Source of the DNA: a virus
Virus record (IMG/VR): IMGVR_UViG_3300042474_000123
Location: 1 to 21,927 of that record
Length of the DNA: 21,927 nucleotides
Reading direction: 5' to 3' (one strand)
In this document: positions 5,493 through 21,462 of the stretch, in pieces
Numbering within the stretch: the stretch's first letter is position 1
Layout: every line of letters begins with the position of its first letter
Notes under the pieces: generated by a model
Databases searched by the model: none
The model's input: only the letters and a program-made list of their open reading frames with translations
What the model was told of the DNA's origin: nothing
Made by a program: the position numbers and the translations under genes

Positions 5493-6166
5493 TGTCAAAC
5501 TATGTAAAAGCAACAAACTTCTTTACAAAGGATGCCTTGCTTACAGGTAATCCTAGTAAGATTATTAAAGGTGCTGAGATTGATGATGAGTATAATGCTA
5601 TTGCAACTGCTATAACTAGTAAAGCAGATACTACTTCTCCTACTTTTACTGGTACTCCTATAGCTCCAACTGCAGGTGCAGGTACTAACACCACTCAAAT
5701 AGCAACAACTGCCTTTGTTGTAGCTGCTTTAGCTTTAATGTATCCTGTAGGAACAATCTTTACTTCTACTAGTCTAACTAATCCAGCTACATCCCTTGGT
5801 TTTGGTACATGGGTAGCATTTGGTGCTGGTCGTGTATTAGTTGGTGTTGGCGGTGCATTTACTGCTGGTGCAACTGGCGGTAGCGCAGATGCAGTTGTAG
5901 TAAGTCACTCACACACTGCCACATCAAGTGTTTCAGATTCAGGTCATAGTCACGTTGGTCGTGTTGCTACTACTTTAGGTGGATATGTTGGTCAAGATGG
6001 TTTTGAAGAAGGTCGTGGTAATCCTGATTGGTCTACACAAACAAGTACAAATTCTGCAACAACTGGTATCTCTGTAGCAACATCTGTAGCATCTGCTGGG
6101 GTAAGCGGTACAAACGCAAATCTACAACCGTATGTTGTAGTTTATATGTGGAATCGCACGGCTTAA
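5492..6166 (+). CDS. Tail fibre / collar-like receptor-binding protein
   Basis: A 224-aa protein in three parts. Residues 1-50 are a helical attachment segment (FFTKDALLTGNPSKIIKGAE). About 45-75 is a Thr/Ala-rich shaft with the TTQIATTAFV repeat found in many phage fibres. The distal domain (about 84-224) contains YPVGTIFTS, GFGTWVAFGAGRVLVGVG, the SHSHT pair (possible metal or contact site) and ends in the conserved LQPYVVVYMWNRTA. That C-terminal signature is typical of tail-collar/fibre tips in podo- and siphophages. Overlaps its upstream neighbour (TAATG). Confidence 0.82.
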   Translation: MSNYVKATNFFTKDALLTGNPSKIIKGAEIDDEYNAIATAITSKADTTSPTFTGTPIAPTAGAGTNTTQIATTAFVVAALALMYPVGTIFTSTSLTNPATSLGFGTWVAFGAGRVLVGVGGAFTAGATGGSADAVVVSHSHTATSSVSDSGHSHVGRVATTLGGYVGQDGFEEGRGNPDWSTQTSTNSATTGISVATSVASAGVSGTNANLQPYVVVYMWNRTA

Positions 6167-15063: not shown

Positions 15064-15510
15064 TTATAAGGTTTCTGCTGGCTCAAAGACAAACTCCTCA
15101 AACTGTTTAGCAATGGCAATGATGTCACCTACCGTTGCTTTAGGGGATAGGGCAATAGCATTAGCAAGGGATGATTGTCTAACAATGTATCGTTGTTTAA
15201 TCGCCCGTTCCTCTGCTGTTTCATAGTTACTACCTATTACCTTGGTCGTTGGTGCAGCTTGTTTAAACGACCCTACTGGACCAATAGCAGACCAGTTGTC
15301 ATACTTACCATTCTTTGTGATGGCTACTTCAAATTTGTCACCAATGTTCGCATCATCTAACACACCAAACACCTTGGGGTTAGCAAAGGGAACTATGTTC
15401 TGTGTGCGAGTTACGCCTTCAGAGGTGAAGGTTACAGCTAGAGTGCGTGTGGGTTTCCCAAACTTATCCTCTTTATCTACCTTTGCTATATCTACAATCT
15501 CAATTTCCAT
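15064..15510 (-). CDS. Putative second OB-fold / replication accessory protein
   Basis: A 148-aa protein. The start at ATG 15510 overlaps the stop of the polymerase C-terminal gene (TAATG); an upstream in-frame start would lie inside that gene. The N-terminal 80 residues are beta-rich (EIEIVDIAKVDKEDKFGKPT, then TRTLAVTFTSEGV and FEVAITKNGKYDNWSAIGP), suggestive of an OB fold. Residues about 95-120 (YETAEERAIKQRYIVRQSSLANA) are a motif I associate with phage and plasmid ssDNA-binding accessory proteins. Role inferred: protein that coats ssDNA or clamps the split polymerase. Confidence 0.6.
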   Translation of the reverse strand: MEIEIVDIAKVDKEDKFGKPTRTLAVTFTSEGVTRTQNIVPFANPKVFGVLDDANIGDKFEVAITKNGKYDNWSAIGPVGSFKQAAPTTKVIGSNYETAEERAIKQRYIVRQSSLANAIALSPKATVGDIIAIAKQFEEFVFEPAETL

Positions 15511-16217
15511 TATACAACCTCCATATCTGCCCAATTCAAACCCTTTTGACACTCAGCCGCCATTGGGACATTAAATTTCACACCAAACATCTTTTCAAAA
15601 TTAGCTGGTAGGTCGTGAAACACGCTGTGAAACATTGCCACTAATTCCTTAGTATCGCACACTTTGTCATCAAAGTCAAGGATTATCGAATCGTGCACCG
15701 TATTTACTAACAAACATTTGTCGCCATATCCTAGCTTTTTCAATCGGTTATGAGCACTAACCCTAGCCAAAGCCATGAGGTCTGCACCCGTTCCCTGAAC
15801 AGCATAATTCTTAATCTGCGTGTCCTTATACTGCCCACCGAACTTCTGAAAGTAATATTCCCTACCAGTTGGGGCTACTAGTTTATTGGTTTCCACTACC
15901 TCACGAATAATCTTTGTGTGCCATGCCCCTATGCCCCGATACTTGTCGTAGTAGGCATCCACCACATCCTTCCAATATGCCTTACTCTTGCTTATAGAAG
16001 TGAAGTCGGGGTCATTAGCAAACGAGAATTCATTGCCACCATACAATATCCTAAAGTTTAAAATCTTTGCTATCAAACGGGATGGTAGCCCAAACTTCTC
16101 TTGGTTATCGGTATGTAAATCCACACCATTTACAATCTCGTTTATTAGGACTTGGTCTTGGCTAAGGTAGGCGGCAACACGGATTTCTAGAGCAGACGCA
16201 TCTGCCTGTAACAGCAT
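15510..16217 (-). CDS. polA (C-terminal part): DNA polymerase family A, C-terminal part (motifs A, B, C)
   Basis: A 235-aa protein holding the catalytic palm and fingers of a family A polymerase. Motif A is LQADASALEIR (D6, E11), motif B is RLIAKILNFRILYGG (R47, K51, F55, Y59), and motif C is VHDSIILD (H175, D176). The position equal to E. coli Pol I F762 is Phe here (F55). The gene starts just 5 residues before the catalytic aspartate, at an ATG overlapping the stop of a small gene (TAATG), with only a weak purine run (GAGAG) upstream. It lacks the thumb, the 3'-5' exonuclease and the RLSSTKPNLQN segment, which lie in a separate gene 1.3 kb upstream. It should be active only together with that part. 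Confidence 0.92.
   Translation of the reverse strand: MLLQADASALEIRVAAYLSQDQVLINEIVNGVDLHTDNQEKFGLPSRLIAKILNFRILYGGNEFSFANDPDFTSISKSKAYWKDVVDAYYDKYRGIGAWHTKIIREVVETNKLVAPTGREYYFQKFGGQYKDTQIKNYAVQGTGADLMALARVSAHNRLKKLGYGDKCLLVNTVHDSIILDFDDKVCDTKELVAMFHSVFHDLPANFEKMFGVKFNVPMAAECQKGLNWADMEVV
16211..16217. repeat. 7-bp direct repeat at the left edge of the polymerase interruption
   Basis: ACAGCAT (plus strand), which covers the start codon and next bases of the polymerase C-terminal gene. It recurs at 17541-17547 at the end of the N-terminal gene, 1330 bases away. Collapsing the two copies would not restore the reading frame. Confidence 0.35.
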
Positions 16218-17375: not shown

Positions 17376-17547
17376 TCTCCTGTTCTACTACTCTATAAAA
17401 TTTAACATATTGCCAATCTAGCTGGCTTGCCTTAACAACATAATTGCCTTGAGAGCTGTAAGTTTCCACTTCAATCAAACTCTCAGGTGGCTCGTAACAT
17501 TCAGGTGAGCCGTCGTGTTTCCTCCAACCATTCCGTTCATACAGCAT
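17359..17547 (-). CDS. Small hypothetical protein overlapping the polymerase N-terminal gene end
   Basis: A 62-aa protein started at the ATG inside the last codons of the polymerase N-terminal gene (11-base overlap), with GGGAG as ribosome binding site; a GTG at 17565 is also possible. It is acidic with beta character (SLIEVETYSSQGNYVVKA, YVKFYRVVEQ). Its first codons ATGCTGT are identical to those of the polymerase C-terminal gene. Unknown function. Confidence 0.55.
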   Translation of the reverse strand: MLYERNGWRKHDGSPECYEPPESLIEVETYSSQGNYVVKASQLDWQYVKFYRVVEQENDDAV

Positions 17548-18703
17548 ATCTACTCCCGAATACACCCTTCATATCCCCACTAATGTTTTGTAGGTTGGGT
17601 TTAGTTGATGATAGTCGCCCTGTCCGAGCAACGCATTGGTTGAGGTTCCCGTGCAACATATTCACACCCCAATTCATTTTCTCCCGTAACGCTGGCAACC
17701 CTAAATAATAAGTTGATACTATCTTTTCTAGTTTAGCGAGTTCCAAGATGGTGTCCACTATTTTCTTTGCCTCACCTTTTGGCTTAAGGGATTTTAACAC
17801 ATCAGCCCCAGTAGCCCAATAACCCTCTTTCTTAAGTTCACTTCCCACCAAGGGTTTAACAAGCCGTGGCATATAGAATGAATAATCTTTCCAACCCAGC
17901 TTCTCCTGTCCCTTCCTATCCCCTGTCTTATACACCCCTACAACTTCTTTACGGGGAATGGTGATAGTGCCACCATATAACAAGGCGGATAGGTGGTCGC
18001 CACTCTCGGTGTTAAATTCAGGGATTGAATGGCTTGCATACAGCGATGCCCGTAACGCCTCAATCTCTTTACCTAAGACCTCAGCCTGTTTCAGACAAGC
18101 CCACTCGTCAAACAGCAGACCATTATATTCAATCTCCTGTAAGACAATCAGGTCTTGGTTGTGAAGGGAAACAAGTCGTTTAAACGCTGTGCTTTTTGCA
18201 TTTACTTCTTCAACCTGTTTTTTATAAACTTCTAAAGTTAAGGATATATCTTGCTTTAAATATTGTTCTAAAATATCTCTTGGAATATCAGGTGTGTCTA
18301 TTCCAGCATCCCAATAAGCCTTAACCTCATCTAATTTAGAACCAATGCCATAATACTCACATACTCCATTTAAACTTGGATAACTATCTGCTTGACCTTG
18401 TAGCATAAAGTGAACAAGTTGGCAGTCCCAGCAGCGAATATTACTAAAGTCTAACCCATATCGCTTACCCCATCCAATATCAAATTTAAGATTAAAGCCA
18501 ACAAGTAGGTCGCAATTATCTAAAATACTTTGAGCTTCTTTTAGGGAATTCCCATAAGGTTCATCATTATATTCTATGGGTAAAAGAGAATACTCTTGCT
18601 CATCTTTATAAAATCCTACATACACAAGTTTATTAGTTTGGCTATATGTTGAGCCCTTCTCATAAATAGTTGTTTCTACATCATAAGCGATTATATTTTT
18701 CAT
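17537..18703 (-). CDS. polA (N-terminal part): DNA polymerase family A, N-terminal part (3'-5' exonuclease, thumb, part of palm)
   Basis: A 388-aa protein. The proofreading exonuclease has ExoI DVET (D8, E10), ExoII GFNLKFD (N71, D75) and ExoIII YLKQD (D152). Thumb and the start of the palm follow, including RTGRLSSTKPNLQN (360-373), the block that precedes motif A in family A. The protein stops at GSRYAV, 388, where an uninterrupted polymerase would continue for a few residues into motif A. The missing catalytic part is at 15510-16217. Combined size (about 623 aa) is normal for a phage family A polymerase. Codons 1-174 are clearly AT-richer than codons 175-388. The start overlaps the end of the HNH-AP2 gene by 23 bases. 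Confidence 0.9.
   Translation of the reverse strand: MKNIIAYDVETTIYEKGSTYSQTNKLVYVGFYKDEQEYSLLPIEYNDEPYGNSLKEAQSILDNCDLLVGFNLKFDIGWGKRYGLDFSNIRCWDCQLVHFMLQGQADSYPSLNGVCEYYGIGSKLDEVKAYWDAGIDTPDIPRDILEQYLKQDISLTLEVYKKQVEEVNAKSTAFKRLVSLHNQDLIVLQEIEYNGLLFDEWACLKQAEVLGKEIEALRASLYASHSIPEFNTESGDHLSALLYGGTITIPRKEVVGVYKTGDRKGQEKLGWKDYSFYMPRLVKPLVGSELKKEGYWATGADVLKSLKPKGEAKKIVDTILELAKLEKIVSTYYLGLPALREKMNWGVNMLHGNLNQCVARTGRLSSTKPNLQNISGDMKGVFGSRYAV
17541..17547. repeat. 7-bp direct repeat at the right edge of the polymerase interruption
   Basis: ACAGCAT (plus strand) within the last codons of the polymerase N-terminal gene, matching 16211-16217. It also forms the start of the next small gene. Confidence 0.35.
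18178..18191. repeat. GTTTAAAC palindrome, 14-bp form
   Basis: GTTTAAACGCTGTG, identical to 21497-21510. It falls at codons 174-175 of the polymerase N-terminal gene, at the boundary between exonuclease and polymerase domains and at the base-composition step. Confidence 0.55.
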
Positions 18704-19184
18704 AATGAAATTCCTTATACAAGGATTTAGTAAATGTATTGTAAACCTCAGAAGCTTCTTCAGCCGTATTAAAACTACCTAGATGATGTCGAACACCATT
18801 ATAGGTGCATTTTGCTCTGTATTTCTTACTCTGAGTATGCCAATAAACCCCGATATACCCAGTAGCATTGTTAGATTGTTTTCCACGATTTAAAGCATTT
18901 TGAGCCCTAGTAGCTTCTCTTAAATTTTGCAATCGATTATCAGTTTTATCATTATTTATATGGTCTAAAAATTCAGATGGAAACTTACCATAAACATACA
19001 TCCATATAATTCTATGATACTGGTAAACCTTTTTATCAATAGTAATATGAATATATCCAGTATTATCTAATGTGCCTGCAACACTTCCAATTAAAGCTCT
19101 AGTACCTTTTCTAACTTTCCAAGTTAATTCCCCTGTAAATTCATCATAATTTAAGATACTGTTTAAATACTCTTGTGTAATCAT
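18681..19184 (-). CDS. HNH-AP2 homing-type endonuclease
   Basis: A 167-aa protein with an HNH nuclease centre (YHRIIW with H57; LDHINNDKTDNR with D74-H75 and N83) followed by NLREAT-x-x-QN (88-96) and a C-terminal AP2 DNA-binding domain (about 109-150, GYIGVYWHTQSKKYRA and LGSFNTAEEASEVYN). This HNH_3 plus AP2 layout is typical of phage homing endonucleases. It has an AGGAG ribosome binding site and its own promoter. Its last 23 bases overlap the polymerase N-terminal gene. It is AT-rich (17 of 60 G/C at 18901-18960), unlike the helicase. Its likely target is a nearby replication gene in related phages. Confidence 0.9.
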   Translation of the reverse strand: MITQEYLNSILNYDEFTGELTWKVRKGTRALIGSVAGTLDNTGYIHITIDKKVYQYHRIIWMYVYGKFPSEFLDHINNDKTDNRLQNLREATRAQNALNRGKQSNNATGYIGVYWHTQSKKYRAKCTYNGVRHHLGSFNTAEEASEVYNTFTKSLYKEFHYEKYNRL

Positions 19185-19242: not shown

Positions 19243-20463
19243 TTACATATCTTGATAGATACTCAAGTGAGGAACAATTAAAACTTCTTTGCCTTTTAGA
19301 TGTCGCATAGATTCAACGCTATCTATACTGCCTCGTAACTTATTCTTGGGGATATTTATATACCTAACATTCTCATATCCCTCTTTGTCTGTCCTACCAA
19401 TACCAATAATAAAATCTAGTTCCGATGGCTTACTGGTCTTACTGTCTGCCATTTGGCTTTCATTGATGTAGCGGTCATTATGCCCTGTGCTGTCCGCTTG
19501 TCCAACACTTATTACAGGGCAATAGGTCTTAGCGATATCTCGTCCCCACTTGTAAATCTCATGCAACACCAAATCTTTCCTATCGCCAACAAATCCCTTA
19601 ACCTTGTCCATGTTGTCAATGATAATTAGCGATGGCTGCACTTGCTCTATCAGCTTTTCCATTGTCTTGCGTTCAACAAGGGATGGTTGGTCAATAAATT
19701 TAATCTTATCGCCAATTTTCTCGTCCCATATCGCTTTGGCTTTCTTGATGTTGTTACTCAATTCCATGTAGGTGAAACCTGTAACAGCAGAATACATTCT
19801 CCATACAATATCCTTGCCACCCTCCTCATTAAAAAATATGAGAATTGGTTGTTCTACCTGTTCTGCCATAAAGGTAACTTCACTTATCCACATGGCGGTT
19901 TTACCTGTTTCCACACGGGCAAAGATGTGTCCGAAATTCCCCTTGCGTAGTGGTCCGAGTGATTGGTTGAGTGCGTTTAAACGCCACTTTAGTCCAAGTG
20001 ATAATTCCTCCTCGTCCATAAGTTCCTCAATGTCAGTTGTTACCCACTCTATCTCCTCTATCTCATCAACAACCGATAATTCCAGTTTATCAATGATAGG
20101 TGCTAAATCCTCTACCTTCTTGCGCCCCTCGGCAACATCAATTGCTACAAGGGATAATTCACTAGCAACGGATTGCGAGTAGTGTTGTTGCATATAATCA
20201 ACGATTGATTGGGTATAAACCTCGGTCTTATCAACAGTAGCCAACAGTTCACTTATAACTTTTCTATCACCATCTTTTAACACGGGATACAATGTTAGAT
20301 ATTTGGCTTCAAGTTCCCCTACGCTTTTAGCTGGCAACGATTTGAACAGCTTGAACAGTAGTGGGTAATCGGTTTTAATAAAATCTAGTTTTAAATAAGT
20401 GTGGTATTTAGTATATAAATCATTGTCCTCTAAAAATAGCTTCAATATGCTATGTTCTATCAT
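19243..20463 (-). CDS. Replicative DNA helicase, DnaB/T7 gp4 C-terminal type
   Basis: A 406-aa RecA-fold helicase. An N-terminal helical part (1-150) precedes the motor: Walker A ARVETGKT (182-189, first residue Ala in place of Gly), the catalytic acid in FNEEGG (211-216), Walker B LIIIDNMDK (279-287) and a motif 3/H4-like Gln in VISVGQADSTGH (about 317-328). It should unwind the fork as a hexamer. Unlike T7 gp4 it has no fused primase; the primase is the next gene upstream. The primase-helicase order and the AT-rich gap between them fit a replication-start region. Confidence 0.88.
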   Translation of the reverse strand: MIEHSILKLFLEDNDLYTKYHTYLKLDFIKTDYPLLFKLFKSLPAKSVGELEAKYLTLYPVLKDGDRKVISELLATVDKTEVYTQSIVDYMQQHYSQSVASELSLVAIDVAEGRKKVEDLAPIIDKLELSVVDEIEEIEWVTTDIEELMDEEELSLGLKWRLNALNQSLGPLRKGNFGHIFARVETGKTAMWISEVTFMAEQVEQPILIFFNEEGGKDIVWRMYSAVTGFTYMELSNNIKKAKAIWDEKIGDKIKFIDQPSLVERKTMEKLIEQVQPSLIIIDNMDKVKGFVGDRKDLVLHEIYKWGRDIAKTYCPVISVGQADSTGHNDRYINESQMADSKTSKPSELDFIIGIGRTDKEGYENVRYINIPKNKLRGSIDSVESMRHLKGKEVLIVPHLSIYQDM

Positions 20464-20515: not shown

Positions 20516-20564
20516 TAATAATATATAATATATATATTTAATATATTATATTATTATATATATA
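20516..20564. other. 49-bp pure A/T tract, imperfect palindrome; candidate replication origin
   Basis: No G or C occurs in 49 bases. The arms TAATAATATA (from 20516) and TATATTATTA (ending 20556) pair, with the centre imperfect. The right part encodes the last residues of the primase (YIYNNIIY). Such a tract next to primase and helicase genes is what an origin unwinding element looks like. It could instead be a terminator-like hairpin or simple low complexity. Confidence 0.45.
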
Positions 20565-21236
20565 CTCTTTTATTGCATTGTCGTCATACTCTTTAGGGTC
20601 TTTAGGGGATATTACAACCCTTACCCTCTTGTTTAATCTCTCTGACAGGTTTCTAGCCGTTTTAATGGCATCTTTTGCCTTGTCAAAATCATTCCAAATG
20701 CAGATATTATTGTAGCCTTCTAGGTGGCTTGCCGCATCTTGAGATGGCATACTGCCTAACATTGGGACAGCAGTAAATTGTCGTCCAACCTTGACAGCAG
20801 ATATTATATCCTCGACAAACACCAATACATCTTGGTTATTACCATATTTTAAAAAGGGTTTTGTGCCACTCGTCAGGTATTTTGCACCCTTTCCAAAGTT
20901 TCTAGCGCACCAGTAATTGCTATCAGAATATAAAACCAGTAAATCACATGGCATTAAACCATATTTTCCAATTCTTTCCCTTGCATAAGTGAATTGTGCT
21001 ATCTCATCACTCGTTAAACCATACCCTAGGAGCCATTTTAAGGCACCGCCATCGAGTTTTGTGTCCAAAGTGATACCGTTACATATCTTAACCTCTTTTA
21101 TCGCCTTAAAACGCTTTAAACTAAGTTTAGGTGTATATTTATTACAGCTAAAACAGTAATAGCTGTCGTCATATTCTGCATTTGCATCACTTGAGCCGCA
21201 TTTTTCACAAGGTGTGAATTGTATAAACTTACTCAT
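20538..21236 (-). CDS. DNA primase with zinc ribbon and TOPRIM domain
   Basis: A 232-aa protein. The N-terminal zinc ribbon has C10-x2-C13 and C28-x2-C31 (CEKC, CFSC), which reads the template trinucleotide in T7-type primases. The TOPRIM domain is seen as VFVEDIISAVK (E142) and WNDFD (D183, D185). It is shorter than the T7 gp4 primase half but has all main elements. The start overlaps the preceding small zinc-ribbon gene by 8 bases. It primes lagging-strand synthesis together with the separate helicase next door. Confidence 0.9.
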   Translation of the reverse strand: MSKFIQFTPCEKCGSSDANAEYDDSYYCFSCNKYTPKLSLKRFKAIKEVKICNGITLDTKLDGGALKWLLGYGLTSDEIAQFTYARERIGKYGLMPCDLLVLYSDSNYWCARNFGKGAKYLTSGTKPFLKYGNNQDVLVFVEDIISAVKVGRQFTAVPMLGSMPSQDAASHLEGYNNICIWNDFDKAKDAIKTARNLSERLNKRVRVVISPKDPKEYDDNAIKEYIYNNIIY

Positions 21237-21393
21237 CTATAATTCCTTGCAATTCTTTTTCAATCTCAATATATGTGATTTCGTCTTTCGTAAACTGATA
21301 ACACTTGTTGCAAAAGTCCACATATACCCCATGACTATCTTTACGAATAGCCTCTAAATCTGATAATTCACAATCACAAGCCAAACACCTCAT
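21229..21393 (-). CDS. Small zinc-ribbon peptide (54 aa)
   Basis: A 54-aa protein beginning MRCLACDCELSDLEA with C3-x2-C6 and later CNKC, four cysteines for one zinc. It precedes the primase with an 8-base overlap and follows a promoter region, with an AAGGAAA ribosome binding site. It resembles small phage zinc ribbons of unknown role; a regulator or primase partner is possible. Confidence 0.65.
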   Translation of the reverse strand: MRCLACDCELSDLEAIRKDSHGVYVDFCNKCYQFTKDEITYIEIEKELQGIIDE

Positions 21394-21412: not shown

Positions 21413-21430
21413 TGTTGTCAAAAAGCAACA
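21413..21430. promoter_or_regulatory. Operator-like dyad, downstream copy
   Basis: TGTTGTCAAAAAGCAACA, an inverted repeat (TGTTG / CAACA) just downstream of the -10 of the minus-strand promoter. It matches the copy at 21445-21462 at 15 of 18 positions. Confidence 0.5.
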
Positions 21431-21432
21431 CT

Positions 21433-21460
21433 ATTATAACAGGTTGTTGTAAAAATACAA
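21433..21460 (-). promoter_or_regulatory. Sigma70-type promoter of the replication operon
   Basis: On the minus strand TTGTAT (21460-21455), 16-base spacer, TATAAT (21438-21433; perfect -10). It lies 40 bases ahead of the zinc-ribbon gene and should drive primase, helicase and downstream genes. Dyads flank and overlap it. Confidence 0.65.
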
Positions 21461-21462
21461 CA
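21445..21462. promoter_or_regulatory. Operator-like dyad overlapping the -35
   Basis: TGTTGTAAAAATACAACA holds a perfect 7-bp inverted repeat (TGTTGTA / TACAACA) around AAAA. It covers the -35 element; centres of the two dyads are 32 bases apart, about three helical turns. Confidence 0.5.

Follow-up and report, generated by a model that had tools for sequence, protein, structure and literature searches.

The replication operon of this phage is preceded by two near-identical inverted repeats that bracket the −10 element of its promoter. The pair is conserved in relatives, the same dyad recurs in unrelated phages and at bacterial porin promoters, and no recognisable regulator gene was found among the early and middle genes of relatives. 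From these observations we infer binding by a protein, which we take to be a single host protein that represses transcription here. More specifically, the dyads are putative operators, probably of a DNA-binding dimer made by the host and active at porin promoters as well. The window is the whole stretch of DNA analysed, 21,927 nucleotides of an IMG/VR virus record.

The first-pass annotation described two 18-bp inverted repeats, one over the −35 and the other past the −10 (TATAAT). According to the sequence of the minus strand, both the pair and its placement are as described (Table 1). The dyads form a direct repeat that is identical at 15 of 18 positions (83%), with starts and centres 32 bp apart. 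The outer arms are complementary at 6/6 bases in the upstream dyad and at 5/6 in the downstream one. TGTTG-N8-CAACA occurs exactly twice in the record, at these two dyads, and its reversed control does not occur. When 18-bp dyads with at least 5/6 outer pairs were sought within 60 bp of each other with at least 15 matching positions, these two were the only such pair in the record, and none of 60 dinucleotide-preserving shuffles produced one. On the strength of the shuffles and the reversed control, chance and low complexity were rejected as the source of the twin dyads.

Read on the minus strand, the start of the operon is TGTTGTATTTTTACAACA-acc-TGT-TATAAT-ag-TGTTGCTTTTTGACAACA, followed by AAGGAA and an ATG at 21393. 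TATAAT (21438-21433) is preceded by TGT, which yields an extended −10 (TGnTATAAT). The predicted transcription start, ~21426, is seven bases past this element and inside the downstream dyad. The hexamer at the usual −35 spacing, TTGTAT, is poor and lies inside the upstream dyad. With TGnTATAAT intact and the −35 poor, the promoter is best read as one of the extended −10 type. An 11/12 match to the sigma consensus, TTGACA-18-TAAAAT, begins inside the second dyad; it was set aside as the promoter because its −10 extends into the start codon.

Table 1. Dyads, promoter element and replication genes in the window
Feature	Position	Strand	Remarks
Upstream operator dyad (putative), TGTTGTAAAAATACAACA	21445..21462	n/a	~−36 to −19 of the minus-strand promoter; invariant in 11/11 aligned sequences
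Downstream operator dyad (putative), TGTTGTCAAAAAGCAACA	21413..21430	n/a	~−4 to +13, over the predicted start
Extended −10, TGT-TATAAT, between the dyads	21433..21441	−	From sequence; TGTTATAAT kept in 11/11
54-aa CxxC...CxxC zinc-ribbon-like protein, first gene of the operon	21229..21393	−	Homologue before primase in MEP401
DNA primase	20538..21236	−	phrog_47, E 1e-11
DnaB-like replicative helicase	19243..20463	−	phrog_19, E 3e-45; PF03796
DNA polymerase A (split gene, further along this strand), exonuclease/N-terminal half	17537..18703	−	PF00476, phrog_9556
DNA polymerase A, C-terminal half	15510..16217	−	PF00476, phrog_17

Among annotated phages, the nearest helicases were those of the Methylophilales phages MEP401 and MEP402 (38% and 37%, respectively), which are listed under Zobellviridae. 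The gene for the family-A DNA polymerase is in two pieces: its ORFs share a strand and are separated by 1.3 kb that holds small ORFs. Four annotated phage records retrieved through their helicases (MEP401, MEP402, ct2os315 and QDWS535) also have two polymerase ORFs. An ORF in the gap between the helicase and polymerase genes (18681-19184) resembles, by eye, an HNH/AP2 homing endonuclease; it is missing at that place in one relative (G009, L438) and a different ORF stands there in another (G008). A long AT palindrome (20516-20557) lies between the primase and helicase genes. The IscU gene of the phage was uninformative as a pointer to the host, its best identity being 85% in many genomes.

Relatives were drawn from IMG/VR, ten through the primase (88-97% identity) and 14 loci through the helicase, several of the latter from the same contigs. 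Conservation of the dyads in relatives had been set beforehand as a refutation test; both dyads were present at all ten primase loci, with the 32-bp spacing and with TGTTATAAT between them. In the alignment of 11 sequences, 4/50 columns of the 50-bp module were variable, as were 35/60 of the upstream non-coding columns, 13/30 of the downstream non-coding columns, and 46/200 and 25/160 columns of coding DNA. The variation within the downstream dyad was confined to 2/18 columns and left the outer arms, TGTTG and CAACA, intact. The module was the same in a relative whose flanks had diverged (L010) and in one with another upstream gene (L012), indicating that it outlives its surroundings. In half of the relatives (L003, L005, L007, L008 and L012), the downstream dyad is followed at once by ~20 additional bases that include a small inverted repeat (aaggcaagcttgtcttgc).

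A distant relative (L021; helicase 59%) also carried these dyads, in its case at the early region and adjoining partial second dyads. The early region of G009 contained an 11/12 dyad; for G007 and G008, 9 was the best score in the parts that were read. No perfect dyad occurred in the examined parts of helicase loci L020 and L022-L025. The motif was likewise absent from the parts read of MEP401 (26 kb), MEP402, ct2os315 and QDWS535, and from 50 kb of Limnohabitans phage DC31. A search of annotated phages for near-copies of the module returned 16 weak matches, none of them convincing.

Across IMG/VR, pairs of dyads 5-35 bp apart were found at at least 120 loci, 120 of which fell into 63 groups by shared proteins. 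Because the result of this pair scan could reflect selection alone, we counted the sites that lay outside the selected pairs: 73 were present in 1.05 Mb versus 0-2 for nine permuted half-sites. These 73 sites had a spacer of 6; 14 other spacers gave 0-5 sites, the next best being a spacer of 7, with five. Two records stood out, one with 10 sites in 17.6 kb and the other with 9 in 342 kb, and controls gave 0 in both. Fifty further records all contained the motif, having been chosen for it, and had control counts of 0 or 1. A term search of the open-access literature found no published record of the motif.

The sites are tied to promoters. Although 70% of the sequence is taken up by ORFs longer than 300 nt, 244 of 333 sites lay outside them. 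TATAAT occurred near 297 unique sites 123 times, mostly downstream of the dyad, versus 36 times for the permuted hexamer TAATAT. A scan for the dyad (TGTTGY-N6-RCAACA) followed after 4-34 bp by TTGAC and, 16-18 bp further, by TATAAT returned at least 120 loci, versus five for the reversed dyad, two of which the true motif also matched. By eye, the genes that follow the 134 unique promoters obtained include small early-looking ones and tRNA genes. At these promoters the centre of the dyad is ~50 to 75 bp from the start, upstream of the −35, which is the usual position of an activator. The same dyad site thus recurs in unrelated phages, at intergenic and promoter places and above control levels, as recruitment of a host regulator calls for.

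The layout of the window (a dyad, 6 bp, TATAAT, 0-2 bp, a dyad) was rarer elsewhere, but was present in an unrelated phage (L062). Spacings between twin dyads in other phages ranged broadly, from 18 to 52 bp, so that 32 bp is no fixed rule. Gaps between dyad and TTGAC peaked at 6, 9-10, 16 and 19-20 bp; the periodicity score at 10 bp was 0.24, too weak for phasing of the two elements on one face of the helix to be claimed. Clusters of TGTTGC-N6-GCAACA, possibly another use of the motif, were seen near HNH and terminase genes in a Pseudohoeflea record (L222, 963-1015) and in two similar contigs, L077 (1655-1700) and L091 (3663-3725).

Dyads were also found at bacterial porin loci. In five regions (L274, L275, L276, L279 and L283) of 14 places picked mainly for AT-rich centres, a dyad preceded a porin gene. 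We then assembled 30 PF13609 loci from 143 genomes by porin score alone, disregarding the motif. These 114 kb contained 10 perfect and 14 one-mismatch dyads, and for nine permuted motifs the counts were 0-1 and 0-3, respectively. A dyad matching at 11/12 positions or better lay within ~210 bp upstream of the porin start at 12/30 loci (L476, L477, L480, L482, L483, L486, L488, L489, L496, L498, L499 and L500), which may share ancestry and hence are not 12 independent events; without L477 and L482, repeats of loci seen before this test, the count is 10/28. At the remaining 18 loci, no dyad could be tied to the porin start. By eye, several loci share an arrangement of a dyad, ~12 bp, a TGTTGT half-site, ~21 bp and TGTTGC over the −35. 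Dyads are thus enriched upstream of porins in a gammaproteobacterial sample.

Beyond porins, perfect sites were few in 369 genomes from the class to which a record titled Gammaproteobacteria bacterium belongs: 253 had at least one, and reversed-control sites were also common. The phage-type layout of dyad, TTGAC and TANNNT was not commoner there than its control (2 versus 2). A broad host regulon is disfavoured, as 12 genomes with many sites showed, by eye, no clear regulon among the sites listed. In a single case (L273), a dyad lay 50 bp before TATAAT at a ribosomal operon, named rpsP by eye. CRISPR or REP repeats were rejected as the source of the motif's matches; most of the bacterial scan (at least 120 loci) consisted of other families, which were set aside as presumably unrelated. 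These families included palindromes of Bacteroidales, Bradyrhizobium and Streptomyces, and GTAGGG-TGTTGT-N6-ACAACA repeats (L146, L148, L150-L154 and others, mostly Sulfurovum) that occur as pairs of inverted units and have the look of REP or MITE elements.

A two-operator layout around a −10, as proposed in the first-pass annotation, is typical of a dimeric regulator and is supported by its conservation in the relatives. The annotation had noted no repressor gene in the window. This held when the search was extended to 61 early and middle proteins of three longer relatives: no HTH, MetJ/Arc or similar match was among the 25 most frequent Pfam/PHROG families, a view that could overlook a diverged HTH protein. 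One GMT-like wHTH match among the 61 proteins (E 0.0095) was too weak to use. Among 62 proteins of two other phages with the motif, no HTH family stood out in Pfam. The widest protein clusters reached just 6/21 motif-bearing records and none was common to all; a single shared phage regulator was therefore rejected. The lack of a protein common to the motif-bearing phages, together with the failure to find an HTH protein, points to the host. Against this, none of the 25 most frequent families among 69 neighbours of the porin genes was that of a regulator.

As to who makes the regulator, the earlier annotation left the choice between a small unknown phage gene and a host protein. The motif's presence in unrelated phages and upstream of bacterial porins argues for the latter and against the former. 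It is unlikely that a small early protein of the phage, acting as repressor or activator, binds the dyads and times the replication genes. Many early proteins of the family are indeed short and of unknown function, dyads overlapping a core promoter suit early or middle control in phages, and the lack of a Pfam/PHROG HTH match is no proof of absence. However, the motif occurs in groups of phages with no protein in common with the present one, as well as upstream of porins. Of the features of a phage-encoded two-operator switch, near-identical dyads overlapping the promoter are present, but no cognate HTH or RHH repressor gene was found among the families listed for the 61 early and middle proteins. 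The product of the zinc-ribbon gene is disfavoured as the regulator: MEP401 has a homologue and no dyad in the 26 kb read.

We therefore return to a host protein. One host dimer would read TGTTGY-N6-RCAACA. In this phage it would occupy the −35 region and the start site of the extended −10 promoter, from which the zinc-ribbon, primase and helicase genes, and probably others, are transcribed. Once bound, the protein would keep RNA polymerase out, so that the replication genes would be expressed while it is scarce or inactive. Where the protein would sit upstream, as at porins and most phage promoters, it may activate. Repression is the likeliest outcome in this phage because the dyads cover the core promoter and the start site. 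This prediction is one from position, and in most other phages the dyad is at an activator-like place, where activation is the more likely effect; the same protein may act either way.

It is improbable, though, that the bound protein activates the present promoter, for instance by replacing contacts of sigma region 4, with the second dyad serving as fine tuning. The good extended −10 without a good −35 would be consistent with such a role, as would the position of the dyad upstream of the −35 at the 134 other phage promoters. Here, however, the centre of the upstream dyad is near −27 and the downstream dyad covers the start site, unlike the usual classes of activator site. Class I and class II activator sites lack this geometry.

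We consider it very improbable that the dyads are sites for an initiator or host protein at a replication origin rather than transcriptional operators. They lie just before the primase and helicase genes and, in L021, a stretch of DnaA-box-like sequences has a dyad on either side. Elsewhere, however, the dyads track promoters, as the TATAAT counts above indicate, and the DnaA boxes of G007 and G009 lie in the early region, kilobases from the conserved dyads. No DnaA boxes were seen by eye at the dyad promoter of the window. Clusters of DnaA boxes (TTATCCACA) occur in the early intergenic region of relatives (L437, 15980-16090; L435, ~6010-6070; L439, 170-280) and mark a likely origin outside the window.

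Overall, the twin dyads first observed are confirmed, their first interpretation is partly supported, and the finding is larger than first stated. In phages of the lambda, 434 and P22 type, a dimeric repressor exerts two-operator control of phage promoters. The present case is similar in having two near-identical 18-bp dyads at which a dimer would cover the core promoter and start site. Unlike those systems, no cognate repressor gene was seen in the family, and the motif is common to unrelated phages and porin promoters. By analogy, the nearest precedent appears to be CtrA in phages of alphaproteobacteria. According to PMC9437464, CtrA represses in one such phage and activates in others, and governs the surface appendages that those phages use. 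Like the CtrA sites described there, the dyads recur in unrelated phages and are mostly intergenic and at promoters (PMC9437464). They differ in motif, in that the host genes here are porins, a word absent from the main text of PMC9437464, and in that the regulator here is putative. PMC10688885 describes XRE regulators of Caulobacter and phage phiCbK, in which one DNA-binding family acts on host and phage genes; that phage, unlike the present one, carries its own XRE paralogue.

Porins are common phage receptors. A tentative idea, to which we would give only a modest chance, is that many unrelated and mostly environmental phages read one host porin regulator to sense the receptor on neighbouring cells. 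Each phage would hold back or release its early and replication genes accordingly. Such sensing would be, speculatively, a porin-based counterpart of the lytic deferment attributed to CtrA, extending over far more phage groups. If one host porin regulator is read by dozens of unrelated phages, there would be a widespread link between the state of the host envelope and phage gene expression. The motif would then be a handle for matching uncultured phages to their hosts, and the unnamed porin regulator would become findable by a simple pull-down.
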